This document shows, in pieces, positions 1 through 48,062 of a DNA stretch of 64,000 bases. Each line of letters opens with the position of its first letter. Within the stretch, counting starts at the first letter, position 1. The notes under the pieces were generated by a model, which worked only from the letters and a program-made list of their open reading frames with translations, had not been told where the DNA came from and made no database searches. The DNA comes from Pseudorhodobacter antarcticus (GTDB taxonomy: Bacteria; Pseudomonadota; Alphaproteobacteria; Rhodobacterales; Rhodobacteraceae). The DNA lies in assembly GCA_945860375.1 (NCBI GenBank), contig CAMAQR010000001.1, forward strand, positions 124,001-188,000, read 5' to 3'. Position numbers and translations under genes: made by a program.

Positions 1-3000
1 TGAGCAGATAGCGCGGGCCGCGCGCGCGCAATTCGGCCCATTTGATCAGCGCCTTGTCCATCCGGGACAACGCAGGCCGCAGGGGCAGCGGCGTGTCCAG
101 CAGCACCAGCACCGACACCACTTCGCCCACCGCCTCCAACTGCCGCGCCATTTCCCACGCGGTCAGACCGCCACCAGAAAAGCCGCCCAGCATATAGGGG
201 CCTTGCGGCTGCACCTGCCGCAGTTCGGAAATGTAATCCTGCGCTGCCTCGGGCAAAGTCTTGTGAGGGGCTGCATCGCCATAAAGCCCGCGTGCCTGCA
301 GCCCGTAGAAGGGCCGGTCGCCGCCCAAAAGCTGTGCCAGATGCCGCAGGTTCAAGACGTTGCCGAACATCCCTGCGACAAGGAAGAAGGGCTGACGCGC
401 CCCACCCTCACCCTGATGCATCGGCACCAGATGGGTGAACCGCCGCACCGGAGCCTTGACGGGCGCATCCGCCATTGCGCCGATCTGCTCGACGATCAGC
501 GCCGCACAACGGGCAATCGTCGGGGCCTCAAACAGCACCGAGATCGGGAAATCAACGCGGAACGCTTTTTTCACCATCGCAAACAGCCTTACAGCGATCA
601 GACTGTGGCCGCCCAGATCGAAAAAGCTGTCCTCAACCCCCACCTGCGATACGCCCAGCAAATCTTGCCAAAAGCCAACCAGCGAACGCTCAATATCATT
701 GCGCGGCTCGACATAATCCGTGTCCAGATCGGGGCGCGCAAAGCTTTGCCCTTCGGACCGCGCGGCCTCGGCCTCGGCGGTCTGGCGGATCAGGGCGGGC
801 AGATCGAGCGACGACACGATCACCTGACTGCCGCCCACCGCCACCGCACGCGCAAAGGCTGCCGCCCCCTCGTCTGGCCGGATGCCCATGCTGAAGGCGT
901 GCAAAAGCCGGTCCTCGGCGGCGGAGGTCGGCTTTGGGGCTGCGCCTTCGTCAAACGCCAACTCGCGCACTTCCGGTTTGGCAAAGGCCAAGGCCCCATC
1001 CAGCCGCCGGATCGAAAATCCCTCAATTTCCACGCAAACCGCGCCATCCGGTGTGGCAAGCGTCACGTCAAAGCGCGCAGTTGGATCGCTTGCCCGGTTC
1101 GGGCCAGCATTGCGCACCCATGAGACGACGGTCGCAGGCAGCCCCTGCAGCACGCGGAGGCGCGCGTATGACACCGGCACCCACAGATGATCAGGGCGGT
1201 AGCCCTCGATCAGCCCCATCGCCCAGCCCGTCGCCATATCCATCAGGGCCGGGTGCAAAATCCAACGCCCAGCCTCGGCAGCAAAGGCATCGGGCAGGCT
1301 TAACGTCGCCAACCCCTCTTGCGCCGCCAAAGCCCGCGACCGGATCACCCGCCAACGTGGTCCAAAGGTCAGATGCGCCTCTTGCGGACTGACCAAGCCG
1401 TCGCCGCGTTCGGGCACCGGCAAGCGCGAGGCTATCGCCGCCAGATCAATCCGACCCGCCCCGGCAACAGGCAAAATCCGTGCCTGTGCGTGCAATTGCC
1501 ATCCTTGTCGGCCCGCCACCGTCACGCCAGAGCGCAGTTCAAATTCATACCCTTCATCGCTGCGGACCAGACTCGCGCGAATATCACGCAGCTCCGTTTC
1601 CGCAATGTCCAAGGGCCGTAAAAAATACAGGTCCCACAGCTCAAATGCCCCGACCTCACCCTGCGTCCGCATCGCTTCGGCGGCGATTTCCACAATGCCC
1701 GTGCCCGGGATCAAGGCCTGTCCCGCCTTGGTGCGGTGCCCGTCCAGAACCCAGCGGTCGATGCCATAGCGCGCGATGAACACGCGGTTTCCGCTGGCAT
1801 CAAAGGTCGCCTCGTCCAGCATCGGCTGATCAAGCGGCAGGCGCGGCGCTGGCGGTCTGTCACCGATGCGGTCGGCCAAAGCCTCGGCGGCCATGCCAAC
1901 GCCCGTCCAAATTCCCCAGTTCAGCGCCAAAACCCGCGTCTGGCCCCCCGCCCGCGATTTGGCAAAAGCGTTCAGGAACTCATTCGCCGCCACATAGTCG
2001 ATCTGCCCAGCAGGGCCGGTCACCGTTGAGGTCGACCCAAACAGCACCATCAGATCAACCGACCCATCCGGGAACAGCCTATCCAGCACCAAGGTGCCAT
2101 GCAGCTTTGGCGCAAACACATCCTCGACCTGCGCCGGGGTCTTGATCATCAGCGGCCCATCATCGACCACCCCTGCCGCATGGATCACCGCCCGGACCGG
2201 ACCAAAACGCTGCACCCCGATCGCCACCGCTGTCCGCATGTCTTCCATGTTGCAGACATCCGCCGGGGCCACGAAAACCTGACCGCCCAGTGCCTCCAAC
2301 CGCTGCACCGCAAGGATACGACGTGAGATCGGATCAGTTGGGTCATGTGCCGCCAGATATTTCGACCAAGTTCCCCGGTCTGGCAAATTCCGGCGCGCAA
2401 TCAATGTGATCTGTGCGCCAAAGCGGCGGATCATATCTTCGGCAATGGTCAGGCCAATGCCGCCAAAGCCCCCGGTAATCAGCACATGCGCGCCCTGCGA
2501 CAGCACAAACTTGGCCGCTGGCAGAATCACCGGTTTCAACCCCAATTCAAACCGTCGCTCCCCGCGCAGGGCCAGAACGCCCGTCACGGGGTCCGCCAGC
2601 AAATCCTCCAGCACCTGCCCTGCCAGCGCCTCCAAGCCCTTGCGGGCCGCTGGCAAAACCACGTCAAGCGAGGCCACCGTCAGCCCCGGCAACTCGCGCG
2701 GGATCACCCGCAACGGGCCAAGAATGGTTGCCTTTTCAGGATAGCGCAGCGGCTCGGTGCGCACCTGGACGGCCCCAGTCGTCACCACTGTCATGTGGAT
2801 CGGGCGCGGCAGGTTTTCCTCGGCCATCGCCTGAGCCAGGAACATCAGGCTGTAAAAACCCTGTTCCATGTTGCGGTGGAAAAAGCTGCTGCCCGGGCGG
2901 AACGTCTCGCGTCCCGTGGCCAGCCAGAAATGCGCGACGCGGGTCGGGGCCTGCCCCTGCGCCACCAGATCGCGGATCAGCAGGTCATAGCCTTCGCGAC

Positions 3001-5950
3001 CCCGGTCGGGTGCCAACACATAGCCGCCCGCACCGTCGCGCCCAAAACCGTCACCCGCGCGCACCAGCGTGACCCTGTGCCCCGCTGCCTGCAACCGCAC
3101 GGCACAGGCCGCACCCAGCCCTTCGGCATCGGTAAAGATCAACCAGCTTTGACGAGGTGCATCCGCAAGGTCGGAGTCCACGTCCACGCCCGCACTGCTG
3201 GGTCGCCAATGCGGTTTCCAGCCCCAATCGGCCATATTCTCAATCCGGGCTGGCAAGACTTGTGCCTCAACCGCCACCTTGCCCGGTTCGATGAAATACG
3301 GTTTGCGCTGAAACGCATAAGCAGGCAACACCACCCGATTGCGCCGCGCGCCGGCCCAGATCGGCTCCCAATCCACAGGCACGCCACAAGCCCACAGCCG
3401 CGCAATCGCCCCGATGTGCCACATATCATCGGCCATCTTCTGTTCTGGGTGCCGCAGCGCCGCGATCACCTGCCCAGACGCCACCCCATTCGCCTGCGCC
3501 AGCGAAGACAGCGCCCGCCCCGGCCCCATTTCCAGATAAACCCGCCCCGGTTCCGCCATCAGCGTCGCCATGCAGGCCTGAAAGTTCACCGTGTTGCGCA
3601 GGTGCTGCACCCAATAGTCGGGGTTGGTCGCCTGCGCGTCGGTCAGTGCCACACCCGACGCATTCGAGAGGATCGGCAGCTTGGGCGCATGCAGCGCAAT
3701 CCCGCGCAAATACGCCCCAAACCGCGCCAAGATCGGCTCCAGCATCCGGCTGTGCGCGGCAATATCAATCGCAACCCGCACGCATTCGACATCCTGCGCC
3801 GCCAACTGCCGCGCCAGACCATCCAACGCCGCATCCGGCCCCGACACCACGCACAGCCCCGGCGCGTTGACCGAAGCCATGTCCAGCCCACCGGTCAGCA
3901 TCGGCCGCAACGCCGCCTCATCGAGCGGCACCGACAGCATTCCACCCGGTGCAATCGTGTCAAAGAGCGTGCCGCGCAGATGCACCAGTCCGATGCAATC
4001 CTCAAACGACATCACCCCCGCCAGACAGGCCGCCGTATTCTCGCCCATCGAATGGCCGACCAAAGCCGCTGGCATGACGCCCCAACTTTGGAACAGCTGC
4101 GCCAGTGCATATTCGATGATCATGATCAACGGCAGCTGCTCCGAGGGCCGTTTCAATCGCTCATTCGCCGCAGCCTCGGCCCCGGGCTCGGGCAACCACA
4201 GCGCCCGGATGTCATAATCCAGCTTGGGCTGCAACACCGCCAGACCGCGGTCCATCCAATCGGCAAAGACCGGTTCGGTTTCGTACAACTCCCGCGCCAT
4301 CCCCGCGTATTGCGCGCCGCCGCCGGGGAACATGAACACCACCTCGGGGTTGTCACCCAGATAATCGTGGCTGAACACCCGGCGCGGATCGCCGCCCTCC
4401 AGCAGGCTGGCGGCTTCGTCATGGGATCCGGCCACCAAGACCCGCCGCCGCTCAAACGCCCGGCGACCTTCCTTCAGAGTATAGGCCACATCGGCCAAAT
4501 CCTGTTCTGGATGCCCACGCAAATGCGCCGCCAAGCGCTTTGCCCCTTCATCCAGCGCGCCACGCGATTTCGCCGACAGCACCAAGGGCTGGAACGGCCA
4601 CAGACTGGCCTCCGACACCGCCCGCACCGGAGCCTCTTGCAGCACCACATGCGCGTTGGTGCCACCCACACCCAAGCTGTTCACCCCGGCCCGGCGCGGC
4701 CCCGCTGACGCCCATTCCATCAGCCGGTCATTCACCGCAAACGGGCTGCTGGCGAAATCAATCGATGGGTTCGGGGCCTCATAGCCCAAACTCGGCGGCA
4801 ATTGCCGATGATGCAGCGACAGCGCCACCTTGATCAGGCTGGCCACTCCGGCAGCGGTGTCCAGGTGCCCGATGTTGGTTTTCACCGACCCAATCCGGCA
4901 AAACCCCACCGCATCGGTGGTTTCGCGAAACGCCGCCGTCAGCGCCGCCACTTCAATCGGATCGCCCAGATAGGTGCCGGTGCCATGGCATTCCACATAG
5001 GACACATCCGCCGCCGAAACCCCGGCCACCGCCTGCGCCTCGGCGGTGCATTTTGCCTGCCCGTCAACCGAAGGCGCCAAGTACCCGGCCTTCGCCGCGC
5101 CGTCGTTGTTGACCGCCGACCCTTTCAGAATCGCCCAGATGTGATCGCCGTCGCGCACCGCATCCACTGCGCGGCGCAGCACCACGGCCCCCGCGCCCGA
5201 CCCGAACACCGTCCCTTGGGCGCGATGGTCAAAGGCGTGGCATTGGCCATCCGGCGACAGAATCTCGCCTTGCGTGAACAGATAGCCCCGCGCATGGGGC
5301 AGTTCGATCGTCACGCCCCCGGCCAAAGCCATGTCGCACTCACCGTTCAACAACGCCTGCGCCGCGAAATGCACCGCCACCAAGGACGTCGAACAGGCGG
5401 TTTGCAGGTTGATCGACGGGCCCTTCAGATCGAAGATATGCGAGACGCGGGTCGACAGAAAATCCTTGTCATTGCCGGTGTGGCGCAGCAGAAACATGCC
5501 GGTCTGATCGACCAGTTCGGGGTTGGAGCACAGGTTGAAATAGAAATAGCTGCCCATGCCGCAGCCCGCATAAACCCCGATCGCGCCCTTGAAATTTTCG
5601 GGCGGATGGCCTGCGTTCTCCAACGCCTCCCATGCGACTTCAAGAAACTGCCGATGCTGCGGGTCCATGATTGCCGCCTCTTTCGGCGAAAAGCCGAAGA
5701 AATCTGCGTCAAACTGTTCAAACCGGTCCAGAACCGCCGCCGCTGGCACATAGTTCGGCTTGCGAAGATGCGCCGGACTTTCGCCAGCGGCCAGCAATTC
5801 CGCCTCGGACAGCACGCGGATCGAAGAGATGCCCAGCCGAAGATTGTCCCAATAGGCACCAATGTCCGCCGCACCGGGCAGATGCGCCGCCATGCCAACC
5901 ACGGCGATATCGCTGTCGCCGATCTCTGACAGATCCAGATCACCACTCAT
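1..5950 (-). CDS. Type I polyketide synthase, single module KS-AT-KR-DH-ACP-TE (C-terminus cut by window edge)
   Basis: Reading from ATG 5950, one open frame of 1983 codons runs off the left edge. Domains in order: ketosynthase with ACSTS (Cys186), HGTGT (His322) and NIGH (His362); acyltransferase with GHSMGE (Ser634) and a later IAAH motif that does not clearly say malonyl or methylmalonyl; a long linker; ketoreductase with GGFGGIG near residue 1160 and Tyr1319 in YVAAN; dehydratase-like domain with His1405 in HRTKAGQALIPG and a later LHPALMD; acyl carrier protein with GGHSL (Ser1783); thioesterase starting near 1850 with GFSGG (Ser1925). All catalytic residues up to the thioesterase serine are present, so the enzyme looks active. 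KR before DH differs from the usual DH-KR order. It would build and release a short reduced or unsaturated acyl chain; the product is unknown. It lies 171 bases downstream of a polysaccharide glycosyltransferase on the same strand, so a role in making an acyl group for the polysaccharide is possible but inferred. Confidence 0.93.
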   Translation of the reverse strand, partial: MSGDLDLSEIGDSDIAVVGMAAHLPGAADIGAYWDNLRLGISSIRVLSEAELLAAGESPAHLRKPNYVPAAAVLDRFEQFDADFFGFSPKEAAIMDPQHRQFLEVAWEALENAGHPPENFKGAIGVYAGCGMGSYFYFNLCSNPELVDQTGMFLLRHTGNDKDFLSTRVSHIFDLKGPSINLQTACSTSLVAVHFAAQALLNGECDMALAGGVTIELPHARGYLFTQGEILSPDGQCHAFDHRAQGTVFGSGAGAVVLRRAVDAVRDGDHIWAILKGSAVNNDGAAKAGYLAPSVDGQAKCTAEAQAVAGVSAADVSYVECHGTGTYLGDPIEVAALTAAFRETTDAVGFCRIGSVKTNIGHLDTAAGVASLIKVALSLHHRQLPPSLGYEAPNPSIDFASSPFAVNDRLMEWASAGPRRAGVNSLGVGGTNAHVVLQEAPVRAVSEASLWPFQPLVLSAKSRGALDEGAKRLAAHLRGHPEQDLADVAYTLKEGRRAFERRRVLVAGSHDEAASLLEGGDPRRVFSHDYLGDNPEVVFMFPGGGAQYAGMARELYETEPVFADWMDRGLAVLQPKLDYDIRALWLPEPGAEAAANERLKRPSEQLPLIMIIEYALAQLFQSWGVMPAALVGHSMGENTAACLAGVMSFEDCIGLVHLRGTLFDTIAPGGMLSVPLDEAALRPMLTGGLDMASVNAPGLCVVSGPDAALDGLARQLAAQDVECVRVAIDIAAHSRMLEPILARFGAYLRGIALHAPKLPILSNASGVALTDAQATNPDYWVQHLRNTVNFQACMATLMAEPGRVYLEMGPGRALSSLAQANGVASGQVIAALRHPEQKMADDMWHIGAIARLWACGVPVDWEPIWAGARRNRVVLPAYAFQRKPYFIEPGKVAVEAQVLPARIENMADWGWKPHWRPSSAGVDVDSDLADAPRQSWLIFTDAEGLGAACAVRLQAAGHRVTLVRAGDGFGRDGAGGYVLAPDRGREGYDLLIRDLVAQGQAPTRVAHFWLATGRETFRPGSSFFHRNMEQGFYSLMFLAQAMAEENLPRPIHMTVVTTGAVQVRTEPLRYPEKATILGPLRVIPRELPGLTVASLDVVLPAARKGLEALAGQVLEDLLADPVTGVLALRGERRFELGLKPVILPAAKFVLSQGAHVLITGGFGGIGLTIAEDMIRRFGAQITLIARRNLPDRGTWSKYLAAHDPTDPISRRILAVQRLEALGGQVFVAPADVCNMEDMRTAVAIGVQRFGPVRAVIHAAGVVDDGPLMIKTPAQVEDVFAPKLHGTLVLDRLFPDGSVDLMVLFGSTSTVTGPAGQIDYVAANEFLNAFAKSRAGGQTRVLALNWGIWTGVGMAAEALADRIGDRPPAPRLPLDQPMLDEATFDASGNRVFIARYGIDRWVLDGHRTKAGQALIPGTGIVEIAAEAMRTQGEVGAFELWDLYFLRPLDIAETELRDIRASLVRSDEGYEFELRSGVTVAGRQGWQLHAQARILPVAGAGRIDLAAIASRLPVPERGDGLVSPQEAHLTFGPRWRVIRSRALAAQEGLATLSLPDAFAAEAGRWILHPALMDMATGWAMGLIEGYRPDHLWVPVSYARLRVLQGLPATVVSWVRNAGPNRASDPTARFDVTLATPDGAVCVEIEGFSIRRLDGALAFAKPEVRELAFDEGAAPKPTSAAEDRLLHAFSMGIRPDEGAAAFARAVAVGGSQVIVSSLDLPALIRQTAEAEAARSEGQSFARPDLDTDYVEPRNDIERSLVGFWQDLLGVSQVGVEDSFFDLGGHSLIAVRLFAMVKKAFRVDFPISVLFEAPTIARCAALIVEQIGAMADAPVKAPVRRFTHLVPMHQGEGGARQPFFLVAGMFGNVLNLRHLAQLLGGDRPFYGLQARGLYGDAAPHKTLPEAAQDYISELRQVQPQGPYMLGGFSGGGLTAWEMARQLEAVGEVVSVLVLLDTPLPLRPALSRMDKALIKWAELRARGPRYLL

Positions 5951-6121: not shown

Positions 6122-7129
6122 TTACCAGAAACCCGCGCCCGTGCCGCGCCACATCGCCCATTGCGCCCGCACATAGACAATTGCATCAAAGCCAAAGCCC
6201 AAAACCGTGATCGCCAACGGCTTGGGACGCAGCAGATCACGCGGGTTTTGTGCGGCTTTTGCCAGCCGCTTGGTCAGGAAATGCAGCGGAATGTAACCGC
6301 CCGGCCATTCTGGCAATCGCGCCTTGATCGCGCGCGCAACCCAAGTCTCATCCGCCGCCGCCCGCGCCAGTTCGGCATGGCGCTGATCCAGTGGCAGCCG
6401 GTCTATAGCCCCAAAGCAGGCGTAATTCACCGCCGATCCGATCACGATGCGCACCTGATGCCGGATCAACCCCGCGATGGTCCGCTCTGATGCATAGACG
6501 TGAAACATACCCTCCAACCCATTGATCCGGCTCAGGTCCTCAGGGCCTGTGATCGCATCACGCAGCACCATGGCGCGCAGAAAGCCATCCTCAACCGGCA
6601 GGCCAATCGGCAGATGAAACCGCCGCGCCACCGCTGCAGGCATCGCGTAGAAAGACCCGCAGACGGCGGTTTTCCAACTGTCCAAGCCGCCAGCCGCCGC
6701 TGCGATGAAGCGGTCCTTGCCCGACAAACCCTTTGGCCGCACCACGGTATCCTTCACCGGCTGACTGTTCAGCACCCACAATCCACCCAGATTGCGCAGC
6801 ATTTCCCCAAACGCCCTGTCATCGCGGAATTCGATATCGGCATCGACGAACATCAAAACGTCCGCATCCTTGCGCGACAGATCATGCACAAATCGGTTCC
6901 ACGTCCGCGACTTGCCGCCAAGGGGCAGATCGATCACCCGCACGTCGGTACCCGCTGCCGCTGCCTGCGCCACCGCAACGGTGTTATCCCGGCAGCCATT
7001 GCACAGCACCGAAATCCGCGCCGAAACCCCATCCGTCCGCGCAATGTCCTGAGCCGCCAACCGCGCCACCATCGCGGCGATACCCAGCGCCTCATCATGG
7101 GCAAAAACCCCGATATCCACCCGCTCCAT
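6122..7129 (-). CDS. Family 2 glycosyltransferase
   Basis: A 335-residue GT-A fold glycosyltransferase, predicted to add a sugar on the cytoplasmic face during exopolysaccharide assembly. The N-terminus has the nucleotide-sugar start (VDIGVFAHDE, then ISVLCNGCRDNT), the DxD-type metal site FVDADIEF (Asp96, Asp98), and a PVEDGF acidic motif near residues 179-183 typical of family 2 acceptor or catalytic regions. The frame stays open further upstream, but ATG 7129 is preferred because it overlaps the TGA of the upstream membrane protein by one base (TGATG), which implies translational coupling. The C-terminal 40 residues are hydrophobic or basic and may contact the membrane. Sugar specificity cannot be read from the sequence. 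Confidence 0.85.
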   Translation of the reverse strand: MERVDIGVFAHDEALGIAAMVARLAAQDIARTDGVSARISVLCNGCRDNTVAVAQAAAAGTDVRVIDLPLGGKSRTWNRFVHDLSRKDADVLMFVDADIEFRDDRAFGEMLRNLGGLWVLNSQPVKDTVVRPKGLSGKDRFIAAAAGGLDSWKTAVCGSFYAMPAAVARRFHLPIGLPVEDGFLRAMVLRDAITGPEDLSRINGLEGMFHVYASERTIAGLIRHQVRIVIGSAVNYACFGAIDRLPLDQRHAELARAAADETWVARAIKARLPEWPGGYIPLHFLTKRLAKAAQNPRDLLRPKPLAITVLGFGFDAIVYVRAQWAMWRGTGAGFW

Positions 7130-8544
7130 CAGATCACCGTCCGTTTTGGTCGCCCACAATGCTGAAGCGCCTGCTCTGCCGCTCGCGCCATATCGCGCCG
7201 CAAGCGTGCCATCCGCTCTGCCTCGCCCAGCAAAGCCCCGGCCATCAGCCAAGTGAAAGGGATATGCGTGGCATTTGGCAGCAGATCGACCATATTCGCC
7301 GCCAAGATCAGCGCCAGCGCCGCCGTTGTGCGTGAAATCACCGCTCCCCGCGCCAAAACCTCCCGCGCCAAGGCCAGCAGCGGCAGCGCCGTCAGCCCGA
7401 ATTCGGCGATATAGCCCAGCCAACCGTTCATCCCCAACACGATGATCCAGGCGCCATCGGCGATATTCGCCATCTCGCCCGTGACCGGATCGCGCAGAAA
7501 ATTGCGGCCGTAACCGCCCCAGCCAAACCATGGCCGTTCTTGCGCGCGGTCCAGCAGCATTTCCTCATTCTCGATGCGGAACTGCAACGAATAGGCGCGG
7601 TCTGGACTGAAACTGGTGGCGAAATCCAGAATACGGTCCAGCGGCACCAGATGTGCGCCCCGCAAGATCGGATAGGCAATCACCAAAGCCGCCATCACAG
7701 CCGCCACCAACACCTGCACCCGCGTCGGCGCAAAGATCAGCAAGGGCGAGATGCTGACCAGATAGACCAAAGGCCCGGCGCTTTTGCAGACCAACAGCAT
7801 GTAGAACAGGTAAATCAGGATCAGCGCCGCCTTTGGCCGCCCCTCTGCCGGGCTTTCGCGCAGCATGACCAAGGACGCCAACAGCGCCATCAACGCAAAG
7901 AACGCCACCCACAGCCCGTGCGGCAAGAACACCACCGGGCGATAGCCACCCTGCCGGATGGTCTGAAAAAAGTCGTGCTGGAAAAAGCCGTAGACCCAGA
8001 CGTTCATCTGCGGCGAAAACCGCGCCTCAATCAGCATTGGCACCGAATAGGCCAGCCCAGCCGCCACCAAAGCCACCAAAACCGCCCGCGTCCCCGCCGG
8101 CGTGCCGAGATATCGCCGCGCCAGAAAGAACGGCAACAGCGCGATCGCCTGATTGGCCACCGCCGCGACCGAGTCGTAAATCTTCATGCCTTGAACGGTA
8201 AGCTGCTTGAACTCCAGCGGGTCGCCGTTGGTCAGAACCGTGGCAAACGGGGCCAGAACAAACAGCAAGATCAGGCCTTTGCCAGTCGCGCCCGTCGGCA
8301 GAAAGGTGATCTTGTCCTTCAACAACCAAACCGCGCAGATCAAGGCCATCAGGTTCGGAATTGCAATCTTGTCCAGATCGGGGATCAGCGGAAAGTTCAG
8401 CGCCGTCATCGGCGGCATCAGCAGATAGCCGCCCAAAATCGTCCAGATCAGCGCCCGCGCCGGATCAAGCCGCTGCCACAACTGCCAGCACACCAGCGGC
8501 CAGATGATCAGCATCAGATAAGCGATGATGTTGGGCGAGGCCAA
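7129..8544 (-). CDS. O-antigen ligase/Wzy-like polysaccharide polymerase (multi-pass membrane protein)
   Basis: A 471-residue protein with many hydrophobic helices spread through its length and one larger soluble loop around residues 300-350, the layout of O-antigen ligases and Wzy/ExoQ polymerases. It would join repeat units, or attach the finished chain, on the periplasmic face. An in-frame stop 18 bases upstream leaves TTG 8544 as the likely start; the next internal Met is residue 11, inside the first helix. Its stop overlaps the start of the downstream glycosyltransferase. The window has a Wzx-type flippase and a Wzz-type protein, and this is the only good Wzy candidate. Ligase versus polymerase cannot be decided because this family has low sequence identity. 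Confidence 0.78.
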   Translation of the reverse strand: MASPNIIAYLMLIIWPLVCWQLWQRLDPARALIWTILGGYLLMPPMTALNFPLIPDLDKIAIPNLMALICAVWLLKDKITFLPTGATGKGLILLFVLAPFATVLTNGDPLEFKQLTVQGMKIYDSVAAVANQAIALLPFFLARRYLGTPAGTRAVLVALVAAGLAYSVPMLIEARFSPQMNVWVYGFFQHDFFQTIRQGGYRPVVFLPHGLWVAFFALMALLASLVMLRESPAEGRPKAALILIYLFYMLLVCKSAGPLVYLVSISPLLIFAPTRVQVLVAAVMAALVIAYPILRGAHLVPLDRILDFATSFSPDRAYSLQFRIENEEMLLDRAQERPWFGWGGYGRNFLRDPVTGEMANIADGAWIIVLGMNGWLGYIAEFGLTALPLLALAREVLARGAVISRTTAALALILAANMVDLLPNATHIPFTWLMAGALLGEAERMARLRRDMARAAEQALQHCGRPKRTVI

Positions 8545-8593: not shown

Positions 8594-9487
8594 TCAGGTC
8601 AGCCGCACAAAGAAGGGTATCCGGCGCAGAAGCAACACCGCCGCCCAAGACAGCGCAAAGGTCAGCACAGCCGCCAGTGCAAGGTCCACCCCAGAACCGC
8701 ACAGTTTATAGACGACCAGCAAAAAGAACGGGTGCACCAGATAAATCCCGAAGGCCGCCTGCCCCAAAAACGGCAGCCAGCGCCCGCGCAATGGCATCCG
8801 CCAGCACGCCTCAAACGCCAACACGGCCACCACAATCGTGAACGACCACTTCGCGCCGTCCGACAACACAAAGGCCAGAATGCTTAACACCATCGCCGCC
8901 AGCATTGCCCAACCGGGCCGACCCAGATGATGCGCCAGCCCCAGCAACAGGCCCAGCGCATAGACCGGCAGCGCAAACAGCCATTGCGGCACGGGCACCG
9001 GCAGGCCCGGCACCCCCAACGCCCAGAACAGCGGCACCGACAGCACGACCAGCCCCACCAAAGCCACCGCCAACGCGCGGGGGCTTTGGATCAGCCGCGC
9101 CGCAGGGTCCACCAGCGCCATCGCCAGCATCACGAACGGCAGGAACCACAGATGCTCGGACGACCCGACCAGCAGGCTATAGGGATCGCTCAGCACCTGC
9201 CATTTGCCCGGATCGTCCGACACTTTCAGCATCACCACCCGGAACACCGCCGACCAGAACAGCCAGGGCAGCACCAGCCTTTGCGCGCGCGCCAGCAAGG
9301 GATAGCGCCCCGACCGCAGCGCCGACTGCACCGCCAGAAACGCCGTCAGGATCAGAAACAGTCCCAAAGACAGGTTGCCGGCCCAGTCATTCTCCATCGC
9401 AAAGGCATGCGCCACCACCACGCCAAAGGACGCGATAAAGCGGGCAAGGTCGATGGCTTGGCGATGCGGCGCCGCAGATGTGGTCAT
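8594..9487 (-). CDS. Acyltransferase family 3 membrane protein (polysaccharide O-acylation)
   Basis: A 297-residue multi-helix membrane protein. Its start, with Asp13, Arg16 and the segment FGVVVAHAF (His27), matches the conserved first helix of acyltransferase-3 proteins such as OafA and ExoZ, where the histidine is catalytic. These enzymes move acetyl or other acyl groups across the inner membrane onto sugars. It is slightly shorter than typical family members (about 330-380 residues) but ends normally. It lies 49 bases upstream of the O-antigen ligase-like gene on the same strand, so co-transcription is likely. The adjacent locus also encodes a PKS, so the donor might be a longer acyl group; that is speculation. 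Confidence 0.85.
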   Translation of the reverse strand: MTTSAAPHRQAIDLARFIASFGVVVAHAFAMENDWAGNLSLGLFLILTAFLAVQSALRSGRYPLLARAQRLVLPWLFWSAVFRVVMLKVSDDPGKWQVLSDPYSLLVGSSEHLWFLPFVMLAMALVDPAARLIQSPRALAVALVGLVVLSVPLFWALGVPGLPVPVPQWLFALPVYALGLLLGLAHHLGRPGWAMLAAMVLSILAFVLSDGAKWSFTIVVAVLAFEACWRMPLRGRWLPFLGQAAFGIYLVHPFFLLVVYKLCGSGVDLALAAVLTFALSWAAVLLLRRIPFFVRLT

Positions 9488-9632
9488 AGCTGCGGCCTAA
9501 TCCACCGCCCTGCTTCTGGCAACGTTTTCCGGGCTTCCCGCACGAAACAGAGTGTTCCCGTTGCGCAAAAACAGCCCCTCACCGCTTTGCGCAAGCCATG
9601 CTAACAAGGTGCATCCAGGAAAAAGGTGCCGC

Positions 9633-10385
9633 GTGCAGTTCAAATTCGGGTCCACCACACTATCGGTCAACATCGTCGACGCGGCTGCGCTTCTGGCGGC
9701 TGTGTCGGCACGATTGAAGGCGCGGCAGGGCTTTGCTTTGGCCACGATCAACCTTGACCATCTGGTGAAACTGCAAACCTCGGCCGCCTTCCGCACCGCC
9801 TATGCCGCGCAGGATCTGGTGGTGGCAGATGGCAACCCCATCGTCTGGCTGTCGCGACTGGCGCGTCGCCCGGTGTCGTTGGTGCCCGGGTCTGACATGG
9901 TGATGCCCTTGGCGCGCGCCGCAGCAGATGCCGGGGTTTCGGTGGCCATCGTGGGCAGCACCGAGGCGGCGCTAAAGGCCGCCGCCACCCGGATGATGAC
10001 CGACAGTCCCGGCCTCTTCATCGCCATGCGCCACGCCCCCGCCATGGGATTTGACCCTGACGGAGCCGAGGCCGCCAACATTCTGCAAGAGCTTTCCGCG
10101 CGCCAGATCGGCCTGTGCTTCGTAGCCCTTGGCGCGCCCAAACAAGAGGCCTTCGCCGCCCGTGGCCGCACATTGGCCCCCAATGTCGGCTTTGCATCCA
10201 TCGGAGCCGGTGTGGACTTCATCGCCGGAAACCAGACCCGCGCCCCGGCTTGGGTGCGGGCCATCGCGATGGAATGGCTTTGGCGCGCGCTTTCCAGCCC
10301 CCGTCGGCTGATCCCCCGCTATCTTGCCTGCGCGGCGATTCTGCCGGGGCAGATCGGGGCTGCGATCAAACTGCGCAAGGGCTGA
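9633..10385 (+). CDS. WecG/TagA/CpsF-family glycosyltransferase
   Basis: A 250-residue GT26 enzyme. Family hallmarks are visible: ATINLDH with Thr38 and Asn40, ADGNPIVW with Asp66, then VSLVPGSD; the Thr and Asp match the conserved active-site pair of TagA. Further motifs are FVALGAPKQE and SIGAGVDFIAG. Members transfer an N-acetylmannosamine-type or related sugar onto a lipid-linked primer. The frame is open from 9552, but GTG 9633 with AAAAGG a few bases upstream gives the normal family length; the extra 27 residues look non-coding. It is transcribed divergently from the acyltransferase gene and abuts the next gene tail to tail with no gap. Confidence 0.85.
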   Translation: MQFKFGSTTLSVNIVDAAALLAAVSARLKARQGFALATINLDHLVKLQTSAAFRTAYAAQDLVVADGNPIVWLSRLARRPVSLVPGSDMVMPLARAAADAGVSVAIVGSTEAALKAAATRMMTDSPGLFIAMRHAPAMGFDPDGAEAANILQELSARQIGLCFVALGAPKQEAFAARGRTLAPNVGFASIGAGVDFIAGNQTRAPAWVRAIAMEWLWRALSSPRRLIPRYLACAAILPGQIGAAIKLRKG

Positions 10386-11324
10386 CTATTTATACTCGAT
10401 CAACCCGCGCCTGCGACCGCGCGCGCGATCAAACCAGTAACCCAGCACCCCGCGCGCCTCGGCGACCTTGCCGATCAGCGAAAACCAAGCCCAAACCAGC
10501 CCGCCGCGCCGCGCCAGTCGCAGCAACTGCGCGGGGTAGATCAGTGCCAAAAGCCATCCCAAAGGGTGCATCAAACCCGCGACCGCGACCACAAAGGGCA
10601 ATATCCCCCCCCAGATCATCGCGCGCCGCACCTCTGTGCCCCAATGCGCAAACCCGTGCAGTGCCGCGCCTTCGGCAAAGGCATGCCCTGCCCGCACCGT
10701 CCGCCGCCACCACTGACCAAAGCGCAGCATTGCCGCATCGTGCAAGGTCATCTCGGCTGCAATCCGCCAGACCTCACCACCCGCCGCGCGCAGGCGCAGG
10801 CACAGCTCTGGCTCCTCGCCCGCGATCAGATCGGCGCGGTAGCCGCCCACTGCCTGCACCGCCGCAAACCGCATCAGCGCATCCCCCCCGCAGGCCAGCG
10901 CCGGCCCCACCGGCCGATCCCACTCCAAATCCGCCAACCGGTTGTAGACTGACGCCTGAGGAAACCGCTCACGCCGACGCCCGCAGACCACGACCGCCGC
11001 AGGATGCGCCGCAAACGCGGCCAAGGCAGCGTCCATCCAGCCGGCCACCACTTCGCAATCACCATCCACCATCTGCACGAAATCGGGTGCGTCCAGAATT
11101 GCCAACCCGGCATTGCGCGCCCGCGCCGCCGTGAAGGGCTGCGTCACGTCCAACGCCACGACCACAGCGCCCATCGCCCGCGCCGCCGCGACCGACCCAT
11201 CGGTTGACCCCGAGTCCACGTAGACCAGCCGCCGCACGCAGCCCTGCAACGACGCAAGACAGACCAGCAACCGCGCGCCCTCGTTGCGGCCAATCACCAC
11301 TGCGTCAATCACCGGCTCGGGCAT
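10386..11324 (-). CDS. Family 2 glycosyltransferase with C-terminal membrane segments
   Basis: A 312-residue GT-A glycosyltransferase. The N-terminus carries the family start (AVVIGRNEGARL), VDSGSTDGS and the DxD motif QMVDGDC (Asp87, Asp89); a later GEEPELCLRLR segment resembles the catalytic ED/E region. Residues about 235-270 are hydrophobic and may be one or two membrane helices, as in ExoA-like enzymes working on undecaprenyl-linked sugars. It ends exactly next to the stop of the WecG-like gene on the other strand. ATG 11324 is chosen by alignment of the N-terminal motif; the ribosome-binding site is weak. Donor and acceptor are unknown. Confidence 0.85.
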   Translation of the reverse strand: MPEPVIDAVVIGRNEGARLLVCLASLQGCVRRLVYVDSGSTDGSVAAARAMGAVVVALDVTQPFTAARARNAGLAILDAPDFVQMVDGDCEVVAGWMDAALAAFAAHPAAVVVCGRRRERFPQASVYNRLADLEWDRPVGPALACGGDALMRFAAVQAVGGYRADLIAGEEPELCLRLRAAGGEVWRIAAEMTLHDAAMLRFGQWWRRTVRAGHAFAEGAALHGFAHWGTEVRRAMIWGGILPFVVAVAGLMHPLGWLLALIYPAQLLRLARRGGLVWAWFSLIGKVAEARGVLGYWFDRARGRRRGLIEYK

Positions 11325-11660
11325 CCGTCATGGCTCGCATCTTCTTCATTTCTGCCACACTAAGCAGTTCGGCTCTGCTTGACCATGGGTGCGGCGCAGC
11401 CGGAAGCCTTTCAATTTACGCACTTCTCTGCTATTGAAAAAGCCTCTGGGCGGGGGCCCGGTCGAATCTTGGCGCGCTGTGGGCCTTTCATCCCAAAGCA
11501 ACCTCAGACGCGATTGGCGTCGCGCTTGCCGCAAGGCAGGCCTTGGTTGAACAGTTGCGGCAGGTTTGCCGCGCTGAAGCAGGAGCCCGGCCTTCGGATG
11601 TCCAGACACACGATTTTGATGTCGCGGCCGCGTGGCCCCGTAGATGTGGAGTTTGCTGCC
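11325..11660. other. Intergenic region between divergent glycosyltransferase and BY-kinase genes
   Basis: 336 bases. The BY-kinase frame stays open back to 11379, but the translated sequence there looks unlike protein and has no family similarity I can see, while a good GGAG site stands before ATG 11661. I read the stretch as a divergent control region with a long leader. No clear hairpin terminator or repeat was found. Confidence 0.5.
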
Positions 11661-12533
11661 ATGCCAGCCGACAAACCCGGGGTCCGCCAAGACAGGCTTG
11701 GAACCGGAATTTCGCTGTTCCGGTCGGGCCACCAGACCGCGGCCCCGCCGGTGACGCTTGATCTTGCGACGGGACGCGAAATCTTTCAGGCCCCGCTGCA
11801 AACCTCTTATGTCAATCCAGTCAAGGTATGGGAATCACTGCGTCCCGTCACCTTGTCGCCCGCCATCCTGACCCAGAACGGCCTGTTTCTAGAGGTCAGC
11901 GACCACCCCGCCGCCACCGCTTTTGACATTTTACGCACCCGGTTGCTGCATGGTTTGACGGAAAAAGGCTGGAAACGCATCGCCGTCACCTCGCCCACCC
12001 ATGGCTGTGGCAAGTCGTTTGTTGCCGCCAATCTGGCGCTGTCCTTGGCCCGCCGTCCTTCCAGCCGCACCGCGCTGATTGACCTTGATCTGCGCCGCCC
12101 CGAACTGGCCCGCATCCTTGGCATCCGCGAAGACCATGCGCTCGCCGAATTTCTGTCGGGCGAACAGCCGCTGGAATCGATCTTTCATCGCCACGGCCGC
12201 ACCCTTGCCTTGGGTCTGAACAGCACGCCGGTGGAAAAGGCATCGGAGACGCTGCACGACCCCGATACCGTCGCTGCCCTGTCCGCGATGATGGAACAGC
12301 TTGACCCCGAAGTCGTCATCTACGATCTGCCGCCCGCCCTTGTGAATGACGACGTGCTGGCCATCGCCCCCTGTGTCGACGCGGTTTTGCTGGTGACAGA
12401 CGGCACCAAAACCTCGCCTGACGAAATCCGCGCCTGCGAACGCATGCTCGACGGCCGCATTCCTCTGATGGGCGTCGTTCTGAACCGCGCGCAGGATTTT
12501 TCTGCGGGCCGCTACCGCTATGCCAAAGGCTGA
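11661..12533 (+). CDS. BY-kinase/CpsD-type ATPase of exopolysaccharide chain-length control
   Basis: A 290-residue cytoplasmic P-loop ATPase of the bacterial tyrosine kinase family. Walker A is SPTHGCGKSF (Lys118), Walker A' is ALIDLDLRRPELA (Asp141, Asp143) and Walker B is VVIYDLPPAL. In this family the kinase partners with a Wzz-type membrane protein and its phosphorylation cycle controls polymer length and export. Here the Wzz part is a separate gene starting nine bases after this stop, as in CpsC/CpsD pairs and unlike fused ExoP or Wzc. The C-terminus (GRYRYAKG) has only two tyrosines, far fewer than a typical tyrosine cluster, so autophosphorylation may be limited. ATG 11661 is chosen because of GGAG ten bases upstream; an earlier ATG at 11619 is possible. 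Confidence 0.85.
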   Translation: MPADKPGVRQDRLGTGISLFRSGHQTAAPPVTLDLATGREIFQAPLQTSYVNPVKVWESLRPVTLSPAILTQNGLFLEVSDHPAATAFDILRTRLLHGLTEKGWKRIAVTSPTHGCGKSFVAANLALSLARRPSSRTALIDLDLRRPELARILGIREDHALAEFLSGEQPLESIFHRHGRTLALGLNSTPVEKASETLHDPDTVAALSAMMEQLDPEVVIYDLPPALVNDDVLAIAPCVDAVLLVTDGTKTSPDEIRACERMLDGRIPLMGVVLNRAQDFSAGRYRYAKG

Positions 12534-12542
12534 TCGCGCGAC

Positions 12543-13895
12543 ATGGGACAGATTCAATCCATCGAAGAACTGATCAGCCTGATCTTGCGCCGCCGCTGGT
12601 TGATCATCGGCCTCACCGTTCTGGGTATGCTGGTATCGGCGATCTACGCCAAATCGCTGCCAGATGTGTATGAAACCGCCGCGGTGATCCAGATCGAGGC
12701 GTCTTCGGTGACAGAGGCGAACGCTGGCACCCCAGAAGCATCCGGCGGTGCGGCACAGGTGCTGCAAACCATAGAACAGCGCCTGACCACCCGCGAAAAC
12801 CTGACGGCGATGATCGAGCGCCATGGTCTTTTTGCCGACCTGCCCGATCTGCCGATCGACAAGAAAATCCTGCTGCTGCGCAAAGCCGTCGCCTTTACGG
12901 CGGTGGACAGTGCTTCGGGTCAGGCTTTCGGCCAAAGCCGCACTATTTCCGCAATCCTCATCTTCGCACGTCTTGGCGACCCCGAACTGGCCGCCCGCGT
13001 CGCCAATGATTTCGCCCAAGGCATTCTGGACCAAAGCGCATCGGGCCAACGCGACCGCGCCGCCCAGAATGTGGCGTTTTTCAAAGAGGAAGAGTCCCGC
13101 ATCTGGGCTGCCATCACCGCGCTGGAGGGTGACATTGCCAGTTACAAAAACGCCAATGCCGATGCCATGCCAACGCTGCGCGACGCCCGCCGGGATGAAT
13201 TGGCCGGGCTGGACACCGACCTGCGCCGCGTCGATCAGGACCGCGCCACGCTGAAGGGCGAAAAAGCGGTGATCGAGGCCAAAACAACCCTGCGCGAAAC
13301 CGACCGCCGGCAGTTGGAAGACATTGCCGCCAAACTGGATGTGCTGGACGCGCAAACGGCGTCGATCACCGCGCGGCGCGATGCGGTGCAAGCTGCCCTC
13401 GCCAACACGCCCGAGGTCGAACGCGTGCTGTCAGGCTATGACCGCCAATTGCAGCAGTTGCAGGATCAATACGAGGTCATCACGCAGCGTATGGCCGAGG
13501 CGGAAACCACCCAACGCCTCGCCGAACGTCAGCAAGCCGAACGTTTCACCCTGTTGGAGCGCGCGATCACACCCGAGTTTTCAATGGGCAGCGGCGGCCG
13601 CAAGACAGCCATCGCCGGATCAGTCGTCAGCCTTCTGGGCGCGCTGGTGCTGGCCTTCCTGCTTGATCTGGCCAAGCCGGTGGTGCGCACCGCAGCGCAG
13701 ATGCAACGCCAGCTTGATTTGCAACCCGTCGTCTGTATTCCCGAAATCCGCGCGCCCAAGGGTCGCTTTGGCAACGCAGCACTGCGCCTGATCGACGATC
13801 CGACCAAGTCCATTCTGGGCTTGCCGCGCTATGTGGTGATGGCGGTTGTGACCACGCTTGTGCTGGTGATCACGGCATCAATGATCGGCAGCTGA
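12543..13895 (+). CDS. Wzz/GNVR-type polysaccharide chain-length determinant
   Basis: A 450-residue inner-membrane protein. Residues about 19-36 form the first membrane helix, followed by a large periplasmic part with predicted long coiled-coil stretches (roughly 180-340, rich in Glu, Arg, Gln and Ala), then a helix near 355-377. Such proteins oligomerise and set polymer length together with Wzy and the BY-kinase encoded just upstream. Unlike the standard two-helix plan, a third strongly hydrophobic segment lies at the extreme C-terminus (about 430-447), after a short cytoplasmic loop. There is no kinase domain in this chain. The start follows the kinase stop by nine bases, so translation is probably coupled. 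Confidence 0.85.
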   Translation: MGQIQSIEELISLILRRRWLIIGLTVLGMLVSAIYAKSLPDVYETAAVIQIEASSVTEANAGTPEASGGAAQVLQTIEQRLTTRENLTAMIERHGLFADLPDLPIDKKILLLRKAVAFTAVDSASGQAFGQSRTISAILIFARLGDPELAARVANDFAQGILDQSASGQRDRAAQNVAFFKEEESRIWAAITALEGDIASYKNANADAMPTLRDARRDELAGLDTDLRRVDQDRATLKGEKAVIEAKTTLRETDRRQLEDIAAKLDVLDAQTASITARRDAVQAALANTPEVERVLSGYDRQLQQLQDQYEVITQRMAEAETTQRLAERQQAERFTLLERAITPEFSMGSGGRKTAIAGSVVSLLGALVLAFLLDLAKPVVRTAAQMQRQLDLQPVVCIPEIRAPKGRFGNAALRLIDDPTKSILGLPRYVVMAVVTTLVLVITASMIGS

Positions 13896-13910
13896 CTCAG
13901 CACGGCGCAA

Positions 13911-13947
13911 CAAAAGGCCCACGCCCAACTGGCGCGGACCTTTCTTG
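13911..13947. terminator. Bidirectional rho-independent terminator between wzz-like and exoY-like genes
   Basis: A 13-base stem, with two G-T-type mismatches, lies between AAAGGCCCACGCC (13913-13925) and GGCGCGGACCTTT (13931-13943) with a 5-base loop. Both sides end in A/T runs, so it can stop transcription from both converging genes. Confidence 0.75.
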
Positions 13948-13951
13948 CCGA

Positions 13952-14671
13952 TCAGTAGCCGGTCGCTTTCACCACCACGCCCATGGTCGCCACCAGAACA
14001 CGCATGTCGGTCGCCAGCGACAAATCGGCATCATAGGCCGTGTCATATTCTGCCCGCGCCTCAAAGGTGGTGCGGTTGCGGCCTGCGGTCTGCCAATAAC
14101 CAGTGATCCCCGGACGCAGCGTATAATAGGCCGACCCCGGATACATATGCTGTTGATTGATCATCATCGGGCGCGGGCCAACAAGGCTCATCTCGCCGAC
14201 AAGAACGTTCCACAACTGCGGCAGTTCATCCATCGAAGATTTGCGCAGGAACTGGCCCAACCGCGTGATCCGGGGATCAGATTTCAGCTTTTGCGTGCTG
14301 TCCCACTCCATCCGCGCCTGCGGGTTCGACGCCAGATAGTCCTCCATCCGCGCATCCGCATCGCAGACCATGGATCGCAGCTTCCACATCTTGAACCGCC
14401 GGCCACCCTTGCCCACCCGCATCTGCGTGTAGAAAGGGCGCCCGCCATCCCGCGCCACCGCAATCGCAAGCGCCAGCACCACGGGAACCACAACCGGGGC
14501 TGCCATCACAATGGTCGCGACGTCAAGGAAGCGCTTGAAAAAGTGCCGATAAGGCCCCTTGCGCTGGGGCAAGGCTTGCGCAATCGGGGCAATTGCCATC
14601 TGACCGGGCGCCAAGGCCGGTTCTGCGGGCGTGGACAGCCCTGCATTGAACTCTGGAAAGCTGATGGTCAT
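13952..14671 (-). CDS. exoY: ExoY-like undecaprenyl-phosphate sugar-1-phosphate transferase (priming enzyme)
   Basis: A 239-residue polyprenyl-phosphate phosphoglycosyltransferase (bacterial sugar transferase family), which starts the polysaccharide by placing a sugar-1-phosphate on undecaprenyl phosphate. A single membrane helix lies at about 50-72, preceded by a basic patch; then come MWKLRSM, SSMDELPQLWNVL and GEMSLVGPRPMM, and the C-terminal PGITGYWQ. These are the canonical motifs of ExoY and the WbaP catalytic core. Length fits the short ExoY type rather than the five-helix WbaP type. The symbol is by family resemblance; the first sugar (galactose or glucose) is not determined. It converges with the wzz-like gene, with a terminator between. 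Confidence 0.87.
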   Translation of the reverse strand: MTISFPEFNAGLSTPAEPALAPGQMAIAPIAQALPQRKGPYRHFFKRFLDVATIVMAAPVVVPVVLALAIAVARDGGRPFYTQMRVGKGGRRFKMWKLRSMVCDADARMEDYLASNPQARMEWDSTQKLKSDPRITRLGQFLRKSSMDELPQLWNVLVGEMSLVGPRPMMINQQHMYPGSAYYTLRPGITGYWQTAGRNRTTFEARAEYDTAYDADLSLATDMRVLVATMGVVVKATGY

Positions 14672-15116
14672 TGTCAGTCACCCGACAACAATAAGGCCCT
14701 GCAGAAACGTCGCCTCAACGGCAGCAGTTTCAGCATGGCAAACCAGTCTCCCGGAATCCAGGAGTCTTTCGTTCATGAAAAAGTACATATGTCGCACTCA
14801 GCAGATACGCCCCTACCGCGCATTTTACGCGGTTATGGGGTGGCTTGGCGACAGCAATCGCCTTGATTGGGCCGCAATTCTGACTGATTTACCACGATTT
14901 CGCGCGGAAACTCGCCCCAATCCTACCGCATTTGCAGAGCTTGCAATCGGTGATTGTGGCCATGCCGACACTCTGGCATCGTGAGAACGCAACGATTCGG
15001 CCCGGTGTTTGAACAAGGACCGACAGCGGACGCAACACCGGGATCAGCGTCTGATCGCAACGGCGATCTGTGGCCGGAATTACTGTTTCTTTTTCAATAC
15101 CTAAAGGGGCTCTGGG
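14672..15116. other. Long non-coding stretch upstream of exoY-like gene
   Basis: 445 bases, more AT-rich than the surroundings. It should hold the promoter and leader for the priming transferase. Short open frames exist on both strands (for example plus 14775-14984) but lack ribosome-binding sites and recognisable domains. I see no strong hairpin or repeat; an unrecognised regulatory RNA or binding sites cannot be excluded. Confidence 0.4.
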
Positions 15117-15313
15117 TCAGTCCTGCAGCAAAAGGTTGGATTGCCGCGGACCAGAGCGCAGGCTGGTCAGGAGCAACAACGCCAACACGGCCAAAATCCC
15201 GCCGACCGGATAGGCGGCCAAGACCTGCATCAGCTCATGGCTTTGACCAAGCGACCAAGCGACGCCCGCCAGCCCCCCCAAATCACTGCCCATATCATCA
15301 ATCCAATCAGCAT
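15117..15313 (-). pseudogene. Small two-helix membrane protein gene split by a G7 run (frameshifted or phase-variable)
   Basis: ATG 15313 has AAGG five bases upstream and starts with MLIGLMIWAVIWGG, a membrane helix. At a run of seven G (15273-15279 on the minus strand) the frame then goes off and stops after 27 codons. The neighbouring frame across the same run continues as LAGVAWSLGQSHELMQVL followed by a second helix (VGGILAVLALLLLTSL) and a short polar tail to the TGA at 15117. Joined, they would make a 65-residue two-helix protein. It lies between the priming transferase and the rml operon, on their strand, where small regulators of exopolysaccharide synthesis sit in some bacteria; similarity to ExoX is only a size and topology guess. 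The break may be natural, slippage-controlled, or a sequencing error. Confidence 0.5.
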
Positions 15314-15441
15314 CGCACCTTAGACCCAATCTGCATCAATTCTTTGCACGAATTCGAAACAATGCCAGCGGAAAATACAAAAGACTTTCCTAAACTTTCG
15401 CAAATTCAATCATAGGATGCAAATGACTGTTATATTGCTGC

Positions 15442-16314
15442 TTATTCGGAAACAATACTGGCCAAATACCGACCATAATCGTTCTTTCGGAAAACCTCGG
15501 CCCGCATCGACAGTTGATCCTTGCTGATCCAGCCCAGCCGGTAAGCAACCTCATCCGGGCAGCCCACCTGCAAACCCTGCCGCGCTTGCAGCGTGCGCAC
15601 AAAATTGCCCGCGTCGAGCAGGCTGCCATGGGTGCCGGTGTCCAGCCACGCAAAACCGCGCCCCATCTTTTCCACCGACAAACTGCCTTCGGCCCGGTAG
15701 ATTTCCAGCAGATCGGCGATCTCCAACTCGCCACGGGGCGACGGCTTGATCCGCATCGCCAAATCCGGCGCGCGCCCGTCCAGATAATAAAGCCCCGTCA
15801 CTGCGAAATTTGAAGGCGGCACCTCTGGCTTCTCGATGATCGCCCGCACCGTGCCATCGGCTTCGAAATCCACCACGCCATAGCGTTCGGGATCGGCGAC
15901 GCGATAGCCAAACACCGTGCCGCCCTGCGTCCGGGCGTCCGCCGAGGCCAGCATTTCCGGCAACCCATGACCAAAGAAGATGTTGTCCCCCAAAACCAGC
16001 ACGCTTGGCGCCCCCGCCAGAAAATCCCGCGCCAGCAGGTAGGCCTGTGCCAAACCGTCCGGGTTGGGCTGCACGATATAGGTCAGCGCAATGCCCCATT
16101 GGCTGCCGTCGCCCAAAAGCCGCATGAACTGCACCCGATCCTCGGGCGTCGTGATGATGGCGATCTCGCGCACGCCGCCCAGCAGCAGCACCGACAGCGG
16201 ATAGTAGATCATCGGCTTGTCATAGATCGGCAAAAGCTGCTTTGACACGCCCATGGTGATCGGCCAAAGCCGGGTGCCCGACCCACCCGCCAGAATGATC
16301 CCTTTGCGTTTCAT
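15442..16314 (-). CDS. rmlA: Glucose-1-phosphate thymidylyltransferase
   Basis: A 290-residue nucleotidyltransferase making dTDP-glucose from glucose-1-phosphate and dTTP, the first step to dTDP-L-rhamnose. The signature GIILAGGSGTRLWP (residues 5-18) and Lys25 in SKQLLP are at the N-terminus, followed by DKPMIYYPL and later VLGDNIFFGH, all diagnostic for RmlA. The frame is open further upstream, but ATG 16314 overlaps the rmlD stop by four bases (ATGA) and gives standard length. It is the last gene of the rmlC-B-D-A operon. Activity is normally feedback-inhibited by dTDP-rhamnose. Confidence 0.95.
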   Translation of the reverse strand: MKRKGIILAGGSGTRLWPITMGVSKQLLPIYDKPMIYYPLSVLLLGGVREIAIITTPEDRVQFMRLLGDGSQWGIALTYIVQPNPDGLAQAYLLARDFLAGAPSVLVLGDNIFFGHGLPEMLASADARTQGGTVFGYRVADPERYGVVDFEADGTVRAIIEKPEVPPSNFAVTGLYYLDGRAPDLAMRIKPSPRGELEIADLLEIYRAEGSLSVEKMGRGFAWLDTGTHGSLLDAGNFVRTLQARQGLQVGCPDEVAYRLGWISKDQLSMRAEVFRKNDYGRYLASIVSE

Positions 16315-18753: not shown

Positions 18754-18826
18754 GGCGTCAGGTCCAACTCTCACCGCTGCTTCTTGCGTAAGACTAGCGC
18801 AACTTTGGGGCCGGACCCAGACCGGA

Positions 18827-46078: not shown

Positions 46079-46088
46079 GGATTTTCAG

Positions 46089-48043: not shown

Positions 48044-48062
48044 GGAATTGCATCCGAAAAAA

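Follow-up and report, generated by a model that had tools for sequence, protein, structure and literature searches.

We analyzed a 64,000-nucleotide stretch of the Pseudorhodobacter antarcticus contig CAMAQR010000001.1 (positions 124,001 to 188,000; hereafter, the window), at the left edge of which a type I polyketide synthase (PKS) gene adjoins a locus for surface polysaccharide (Table 1). The minus-strand open reading frame (ORF) at 2-5950 encodes 1983 amino acids and is open at the window edge, full-length relatives being approximately 2125 amino acids long. By Pfam, its N-terminal part comprises a ketosynthase (KS, residues 13-390), an acyltransferase (AT, 538-810) and a structural ketoreductase (KR) half (955-1057), with a KR (1155-1349), a dehydratase (DH, 1376-1651), an acyl carrier protein (ACP, 1757-1819) and a thioesterase (TE, from 1856) in its C-terminal part. 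These searches bore out the domain order KS-AT-KR-DH-ACP-TE, with the KR ahead of the DH, that had been proposed in a sequence-only reading of this DNA. Pfam detected no DH upstream of the KR, i.e., the protein is not a standard reducing module, in which the DH lies between AT and KR. By Pfam and alignment it is nonetheless a type I cis-AT PKS, with KS-AT-KR-ACP and intact catalytic residues, and the best PDB sequence match of KS-AT was 8xju, a PKS.

Residue conservation was counted in those 81 of 85 relatives (see below) whose frames exceeded 1900 amino acids. The KS Cys/His/His, AT Ser/His/Arg and KR Ser/Tyr/Asn were invariant in all 81, as were the DH His and Asp, the ACP Ser and the TE Ser. 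The view that every catalytic residue is present up to the TE serine was thus upheld in the main. However, the residue four positions after the DH Asp is Gly in 81 of 81 relatives, where textbook DHs have Gln or His, and the TE His is beyond reach because the window holds only the first half of that domain.

The window DH carries the motif HRTKAGQALIPG, in which, as had been noted, four residues separate His and Gly. With a strict regular expression, this spacing was found in 78 of the 85 PKS frames; six others gave no match (three of them short) and one short frame gave a three-residue match. The AlphaFold model of the domain, built with 34 relatives, resembled the PksJ, CurF and other PKS dehydratases on PDB structure comparison. 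The ordinary double-hotdog fold of the model and the catalytic His and Asp identify it as a PKS dehydratase of predicted activity. Domain order and DH spacing are separable, since among relatives with KR before DH one Methylobacterium PKS has three residues at this position and one Deinococcus PKS has four. Although both traits do differ from the standard module, they do not set this PKS apart, being common to its close family; the four-residue spacing was ruled out as a functional novelty, given this distribution and the ordinary fold.

A protein search with PKS residues 1140-1740 (the KR-DH part) scored 7990 candidates and yielded, at a threshold of E 1e-20, 2167 proteins; the best 120 were all at least 64% identical. 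A scan of genome contigs confirmed 164 relatives, and the best 80 of these were kept as loci L001-L080. By record title, all are from Rhodobacterales or unspecified Alphaproteobacteria, bar five from Hydrogenophaga (L017, L018, L057, L060 and L079) and one from a Curvibacter metagenome-assembled genome (L015). Amongst plasmid records, 1491 had a match and 38 had one place spanning 80% of the query; 12 regions were drawn from the plasmid matches, three of them lacking a gene table. L001-L080 and five plasmid loci made up an 85-locus set, in which neighbours were called with a tblastn panel. The nearest PKS relatives among these loci were Cypionkella- and Pseudorhodobacter-like (82% and below), and, when panel genes were counted upstream from the PKS, 18 of the 85 had a window-like order, with a Wzy match among the first three and a WecB match among the first five.

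The PKS had been described as stand-alone, a description that its relatives contradict. A nonribosomal peptide synthetase (NRPS) module lies downstream of the PKS in 75 of the 76 loci with at least 7 kb of sequence on that side, together with a family 2 glycosyltransferase (GT2) in 74 and a phosphopantetheinyl transferase (PPTase) in 66. The GT2, which lies between PKS and NRPS, was the most constant glycosyltransferase of the panel and had no PDB sequence relative at E 0.01. In the Hyphomicrobiales examined (Aminobacter, Shinella, Neorhizobium and Rhizobium), the NRPS and PPTase genes are divergent from the PKS yet adjacent to it. The NRPS partner, with the GT2 and usually the PPTase, would be expected directly to the left of the window.

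In the first five annotated plasmid regions, the gene tables list next to the PKS, behind the GT2 in four of them, a luciferase-like monooxygenase of the MupA/Atu3671 family. Pfam showed this protein to be the NRPS module, in which Formyl_trans N and C domains are followed by an unassigned stretch, then by an AMP-binding domain that the luciferase-like domain interrupts, and finally by a carrier. The monooxygenase of the relatives' NRPS scored 480.9 bits against TIGR04020 (cut-off 244.45), with the adenylation domain split around it, and the specificity code, read with GrsA anchor motifs as guides on the NRPS alignment, was that for glycine. These proteins, encoded outside the window, are MtaG-type glycine modules with an a4-a5 monooxygenase, MtaG and MelG being the modules of this kind in myxothiazol and melithiazol synthesis. 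PMC10204066 describes the monooxygenase of the myxothiazol and melithiazol modules as an a4-a5 insertion in a glycine adenylation domain; PMC12283262, unlike that source and our own reading, places such insertions between A8 and A9.

The formyltransferase of the NRPS is of the full ArnA/Fmt type, including the C-terminal domain, and its active-site N/H/D are kept in 75 of 75 relatives, from which formylation is predicted. The condensation motif HHxxxDG is absent from all 75, and the NRPS has at most half a condensation domain. Because formyltransferase matches filled the structure lists, in which no structural match for NRPS residues 300-540 was found, this putative C-terminal half domain is recognized from a phmmer alignment to LgrA and a weak hhalign match to three aligned condensation domains (probability 57%, E 1e-4; less with single domains).

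To relate the two genes at genome level, 198 Rhodobacteraceae genomes, an even sample of the family to which G001 (the source of L003, and one of the 198) belongs, were searched at cut-offs of E 1e-200 for the NRPS and E 1e-80 for the KR-DH region. The NRPS was found in 68 genomes and the KR-DH region in 69; 67 had both, one the NRPS only, two the PKS only and 128 neither. The two matches lay 1189-3311 bases apart in 62 of the 67 genomes and on separate contigs in the other five. The NRPS-only genome (G154) has a 43% NRPS relative, with one in-frame TGA within the match, directly upstream of a more distant PKS and also near another NRPS-PKS gene. The PKS-only genomes are G107 and G165; in the former, the PKS is accompanied by a GT2 and by a diverged, incomplete NRPS. 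In this copy (L120), the PKS occupies two frames with an internal stop, the NRPS is 1113 amino acids long and the polysaccharide genes are retained; it is possibly decaying. In wider samples, searched at E 1e-150, the NRPS was rare: within the class of G001 it occurred in 7 of 385 genomes, and within that of Hydrogenophaga G009 in 2 of 369, G001 and G009 themselves being counted. Relatives (40-43%) of the formyltransferase-adenylation(monooxygenase)-peptidyl carrier protein (PCP) were also seen in larger NRPS-PKS clusters, i.e., L115 (975-16387; G252) and L119 (G154), which are orphan assembly lines carrying aminotransferase domains and, in G252, a sulfotransferase.

Association with polysaccharide genes was counted in 68 of the loci L001-L080, those whose flanks reached 7 kb or more on each side (the other 12 were left out as too short), using a panel of WecB, Wzx, Wzy, Wzz, CpsD-like and sugar transferase proteins searched within approximately 10 kb of the PKS. 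The sequence-only reading had named the same KR-DH order beside rml/wzx genes in several genera as support for its suggestion of an acyl group for an exopolysaccharide or glycolipid, and this PKS family did recur beside polysaccharide genes in many genera: 67 of 68 loci had at least one core polysaccharide gene and 39 had two or more kinds (WecB in 44, Wzz in 37, CpsD in 36, Wzy in 26, sugar transferase in 20 and Wzx in 17), compared with 1 of 20 control stretches. Ten of the same genomes supplied these controls (19 of them 20 kb long, one 12 kb), each surrounding some other hit to an AMP-binding domain, a formyltransferase or a monooxygenase. The panel contains window genes and so favours close relatives of the window, a bias that gives the controls no help. 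With the five plasmid loci, which were the source of some query proteins, the count was 71 of 73. The two loci without a nearby panel gene were from Oceanicella (L062) and Aminobacter (L085), the latter having such genes slightly further out.

Polysaccharide genes flank the PKS-NRPS pair also in Hyphomicrobiales and Deinococcus. In Deinococcus actinosclerus (L092), a species outside the Proteobacteria, an adenylation(monooxygenase)-PCP protein, in which the domain scan revealed no formyltransferase domain, abuts a KS-AT-KR-DH-ACP-condensation protein within a polysaccharide locus. This PKS (12303-18965) ends in a condensation domain, not a TE, and could hand its chain to an amine. Second NRPSs were seen within the same polysaccharide locus in Hydrogenophaga (L117, 1691-7681; L118, 10709-16717), that of G009 having two adenylation domains, one condensation domain, two carriers and a TE, with a similar-sized frame in G010. 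A further second NRPS, condensation-adenylation-PCP-TE, lies in the polysaccharide locus of Paracoccus L084 (7962-11840), with a homologue at L091 (1870-5925).

Table 1. Features of the window, with the basis of each assignment.
Position	Strand	Feature	Basis
2-5950	-	Type I PKS, KS-AT-KR-DH-ACP-TE; 3' end cut inside TE by window edge	Pfam; residues conserved across 81 relatives
968-1870	-	Dehydratase domain (double-hotdog) behind KR, carrying HRTKAGQALIPG	Pfam; AlphaFold pLDDT (predicted local distance difference test) 94.7; top PDB matches PksJ DH1, CurF DH
6122-7531	-	Glycosyltransferase family 2, probably starting near 7129; 5' part of ORF overlaps next gene	Pfam
7129-8544	-	Wzy-like polymerase/O-antigen ligase family, below Pfam cut-off	Pfam; Wzy-panel matches in 26 of 68 loci
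8594-9487	-	Acyltransferase_3 family membrane acyltransferase	Pfam
9552-10385	+	WecB/TagA/CpsF family glycosyltransferase (wecB)	Pfam, NCBIfam
10386-11324	-	Glycosyltransferase family 2	Pfam
11379-12533	+	CpsD/EpsG-like tyrosine autokinase family, below curated cut-offs	Profile searches
12543-13895	+	Wzz chain-length determinant	Pfam
13952-14671	-	Initiating sugar-phosphate transferase, WbaP/WcaJ type, C-terminal domain	Pfam/NCBIfam
15442-18849	-	rmlA, rmlD, rmlB, rmlC (dTDP-rhamnose)	Pfam
18827-20170	-	Wzx flippase	Pfam
20305-22298	+	Two glycosyltransferases, GT4 and GT2-like	Pfam
45194-46982		Two more glycosyltransferase genes (GT92-like, GT2), apart from the main polysaccharide locus	
47874-50183	+	769-aa frame with no Pfam match; a 713-aa minus-strand frame overlaps it, and either may be the gene	
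50975-52126		RTX calcium-binding repeat protein	
54079-55518		Hint-domain protein	

The polysaccharide neighbours of the window PKS were as described in the sequence-only reading, except that wecB, the cpsD-like gene and wzz lie on the plus strand. The Acyltransferase_3 protein is the likeliest candidate in this locus for carrying an acyl group to a sugar. Hint or calcium-binding proteins were also found near the PKS in L072, L074, L083 and L084.

We propose, with a probability of roughly one half, that a two-protein NRPS-to-PKS line, in which the PKS forms the second and final module, makes a glycine-derived acyl group for surface polysaccharide. The NRPS and PKS genes follow one another in that order on one strand in Methylobacterium L089, Deinococcus L092 and alphaproteobacterial G857 and G915, and the PKS comes first in Rhodobacterales. 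Chain flow from the NRPS is favoured because of the gene order in those four lineages and because the PKS ends in a TE or condensation domain; it is favoured also because the NRPS begins with a formyltransferase and is without a complete condensation domain. The PKS sequence of the third-ranked PDB match, 8xjy, recurs in entry 8xjz alongside a peptide synthetase chain, which hints that the KS may take over from an NRPS; no paper naming 8XJZ was found in the open-access literature.

In the proposed pathway, the partner NRPS would load glycine, formylate its nitrogen and oxidize its alpha carbon, and the basic tail ending the NRPS would dock it onto the PKS. The KS would accept the glycine-derived unit and add one malonyl, after which reduction by the KR and dehydration by the DH would give a C4 unsaturated acyl, i.e., formamido-butenoyl or an oxidized relative. 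The TE, or the condensation domain in the Deinococcus version, would release or transfer this acyl, which glycosyl- and acyltransferases of the locus would put on a lipid-linked repeat unit, to be flipped and polymerized by Wzx/Wzy. The choice of malonyl, the single cycle, the fate of the oxidized glycine and the acceptor follow the simplest reading only. What the relatives display at sequence level is the domain content, the conserved active sites, the near-strict pairing and adjacency of the two proteins, and the polysaccharide surroundings; from these we infer attachment of the product to polysaccharide.

Several points weigh against this proposal. The NRPS lies outside the window, its presence here being extrapolated from relatives; both the acceptor sugar and the transferase are putative, an Acyltransferase_3 gene being present in only some loci, and the sequence fits single or repeated extension alike. 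A monooxygenase of the same kind cleaves glycine in myxothiazol, according to PMC10204066, which would alter the starter. Formylation is not essential to the wider family, since the Deinococcus NRPS shows no formyltransferase domain, and the starter module itself is not bound to polysaccharides, since its relatives in G252 and G154 belong to larger NRPS-PKS clusters. The Wzx/Wzy route is read from the window and some relatives, given that Wzx was found in 17 and Wzy in 26 of the 68 loci. The fuller claim, that a widespread, dedicated two-module NRPS-PKS line puts a formylated, alpha-oxidized glycine-derived C4 acyl on a Wzx/Wzy-type polysaccharide, is less likely than not.

The line might instead make a free, possibly glycosylated small molecule, such as a signal, metal binder or antimicrobial, and lie in polysaccharide loci through surface-attached life or plasmid co-transfer. 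A TE ordinarily frees its product, several copies are on plasmids, and the clusters of G252 and G154 would fit such a role, as would the TolC-family gene adjoining the PKS in Aminobacter L085 and the type I secretion set a few kb off in Shinella L086. We consider this unlikely, however, in view of the core polysaccharide genes near the PKS in 67 of 68 loci and also in Hyphomicrobiales and Deinococcus. Moreover, no one kind of small-molecule exporter recurred beside the pair in the seven plasmid regions with a usable gene table, although no systematic exporter search was made.

More doubtful still is an iterative PKS that builds a long unsaturated acyl chain priming or anchoring the polysaccharide, as might be expected for RkpA and WcbR, with the NRPS giving only the starter. 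The PKS is a single module, and KR before DH occurs also in the iterative polyunsaturated fatty acid (PUFA) and enediyne synthases, which counts in favour of iteration. Capsule loci with a type I PKS are likewise known (RkpA/WcbR; PMC3908369). However, a dedicated loading module followed by a single PKS module with a TE is a one-step pattern, and the window and several relatives encode Wzx-type flippases, capsule ABC exporters not having been searched for. Reversed flow, in which a PKS acyl passes to the glycine module and monooxygenase cleavage leaves a primary amide as in myxothiazol, would suit the glycine code, the a4-a5 insertion shared with the myxothiazol/melithiazol modules (PMC10204066) and the Rhodobacterales gene order, but is highly improbable for a PKS that closes with a TE and an NRPS that opens with a formyltransferase, has at most half a condensation domain (HHxxxDG missing in 75 of 75) and is encoded first in four other lineages.

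If the product of the NRPS-to-PKS line does decorate polysaccharide, assembly-line chemistry would regularly contribute to how these bacteria build their matrix, approximately a third of the sampled Rhodobacteraceae (68 of 198) carrying the NRPS, 67 of those with the PKS. To our knowledge, no described polysaccharide pathway includes an assembly-line-made group of this kind. No description of a two-module NRPS-PKS line tied to polysaccharide loci was found in the open-access literature searched, nor any open-access paper joining MupA, luciferase-like monooxygenase and nonribosomal peptide synthetase. Such a role might explain PKS/NRPS genes filed under secondary metabolism in roseobacter genomes. 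Among these, the Phaeobacter inhibens T5 PKS Inhi_1972 and NRPS Inhi_1974, listed in PMC4062626, may, judged from tag spacing alone, be the present pair.

Amongst type I PKSs, the KR lies ahead of the DH in enediyne and PUFA synthases, an enediyne PKS being defined by KS-AT-ACP-KR-DH-PPTase in one protein. The window PKS, in contrast, has its ACP behind the DH, a TE at its end and no PPTase domain, the PPTase being a separate gene. It also differs from the PUFA synthase PfaA in having one ACP, behind the DH, and no tandem ACPs between AT and KR, and scored 325.8 bits against TIGR02813 (PfaA; cut-off 1010.1). A type I PKS inside a capsule locus is already known from RkpA (rkp) and WcbR (wcb) (PMC3908369), and the likeness to the present system lies in this setting within a surface polysaccharide locus. 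Compared with these two by description only, the window family differs in its KR-DH order, its TE and its formyl/glycine NRPS partner, and the window has Wzx, Wzy and Wzz. No rkp or wcb partner genes were named in the annotated features of L081-L086 and L091, the gene tables of which are incomplete.

Both formylating starters and glycine modules with an a4-a5 monooxygenase are already known. The linear gramicidin synthase LgrA, the best PDB sequence match of the NRPS, likewise joins formyltransferase, adenylation domain and carrier in one starting module, whereas in the NRPS described here a full ArnA/Fmt-type formyltransferase precedes half a condensation domain and an adenylation domain that is interrupted. 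With the MtaG/MelG-type modules of myxothiazol and melithiazol, this NRPS has in common a glycine adenylation domain into which a monooxygenase is inserted at a4-a5 (PMC10204066). There, however, the module ends the chain and leaves an amide, whereas the present NRPS has a formyltransferase but no condensation N-lobe, and its gene precedes that of the PKS in four lineages.
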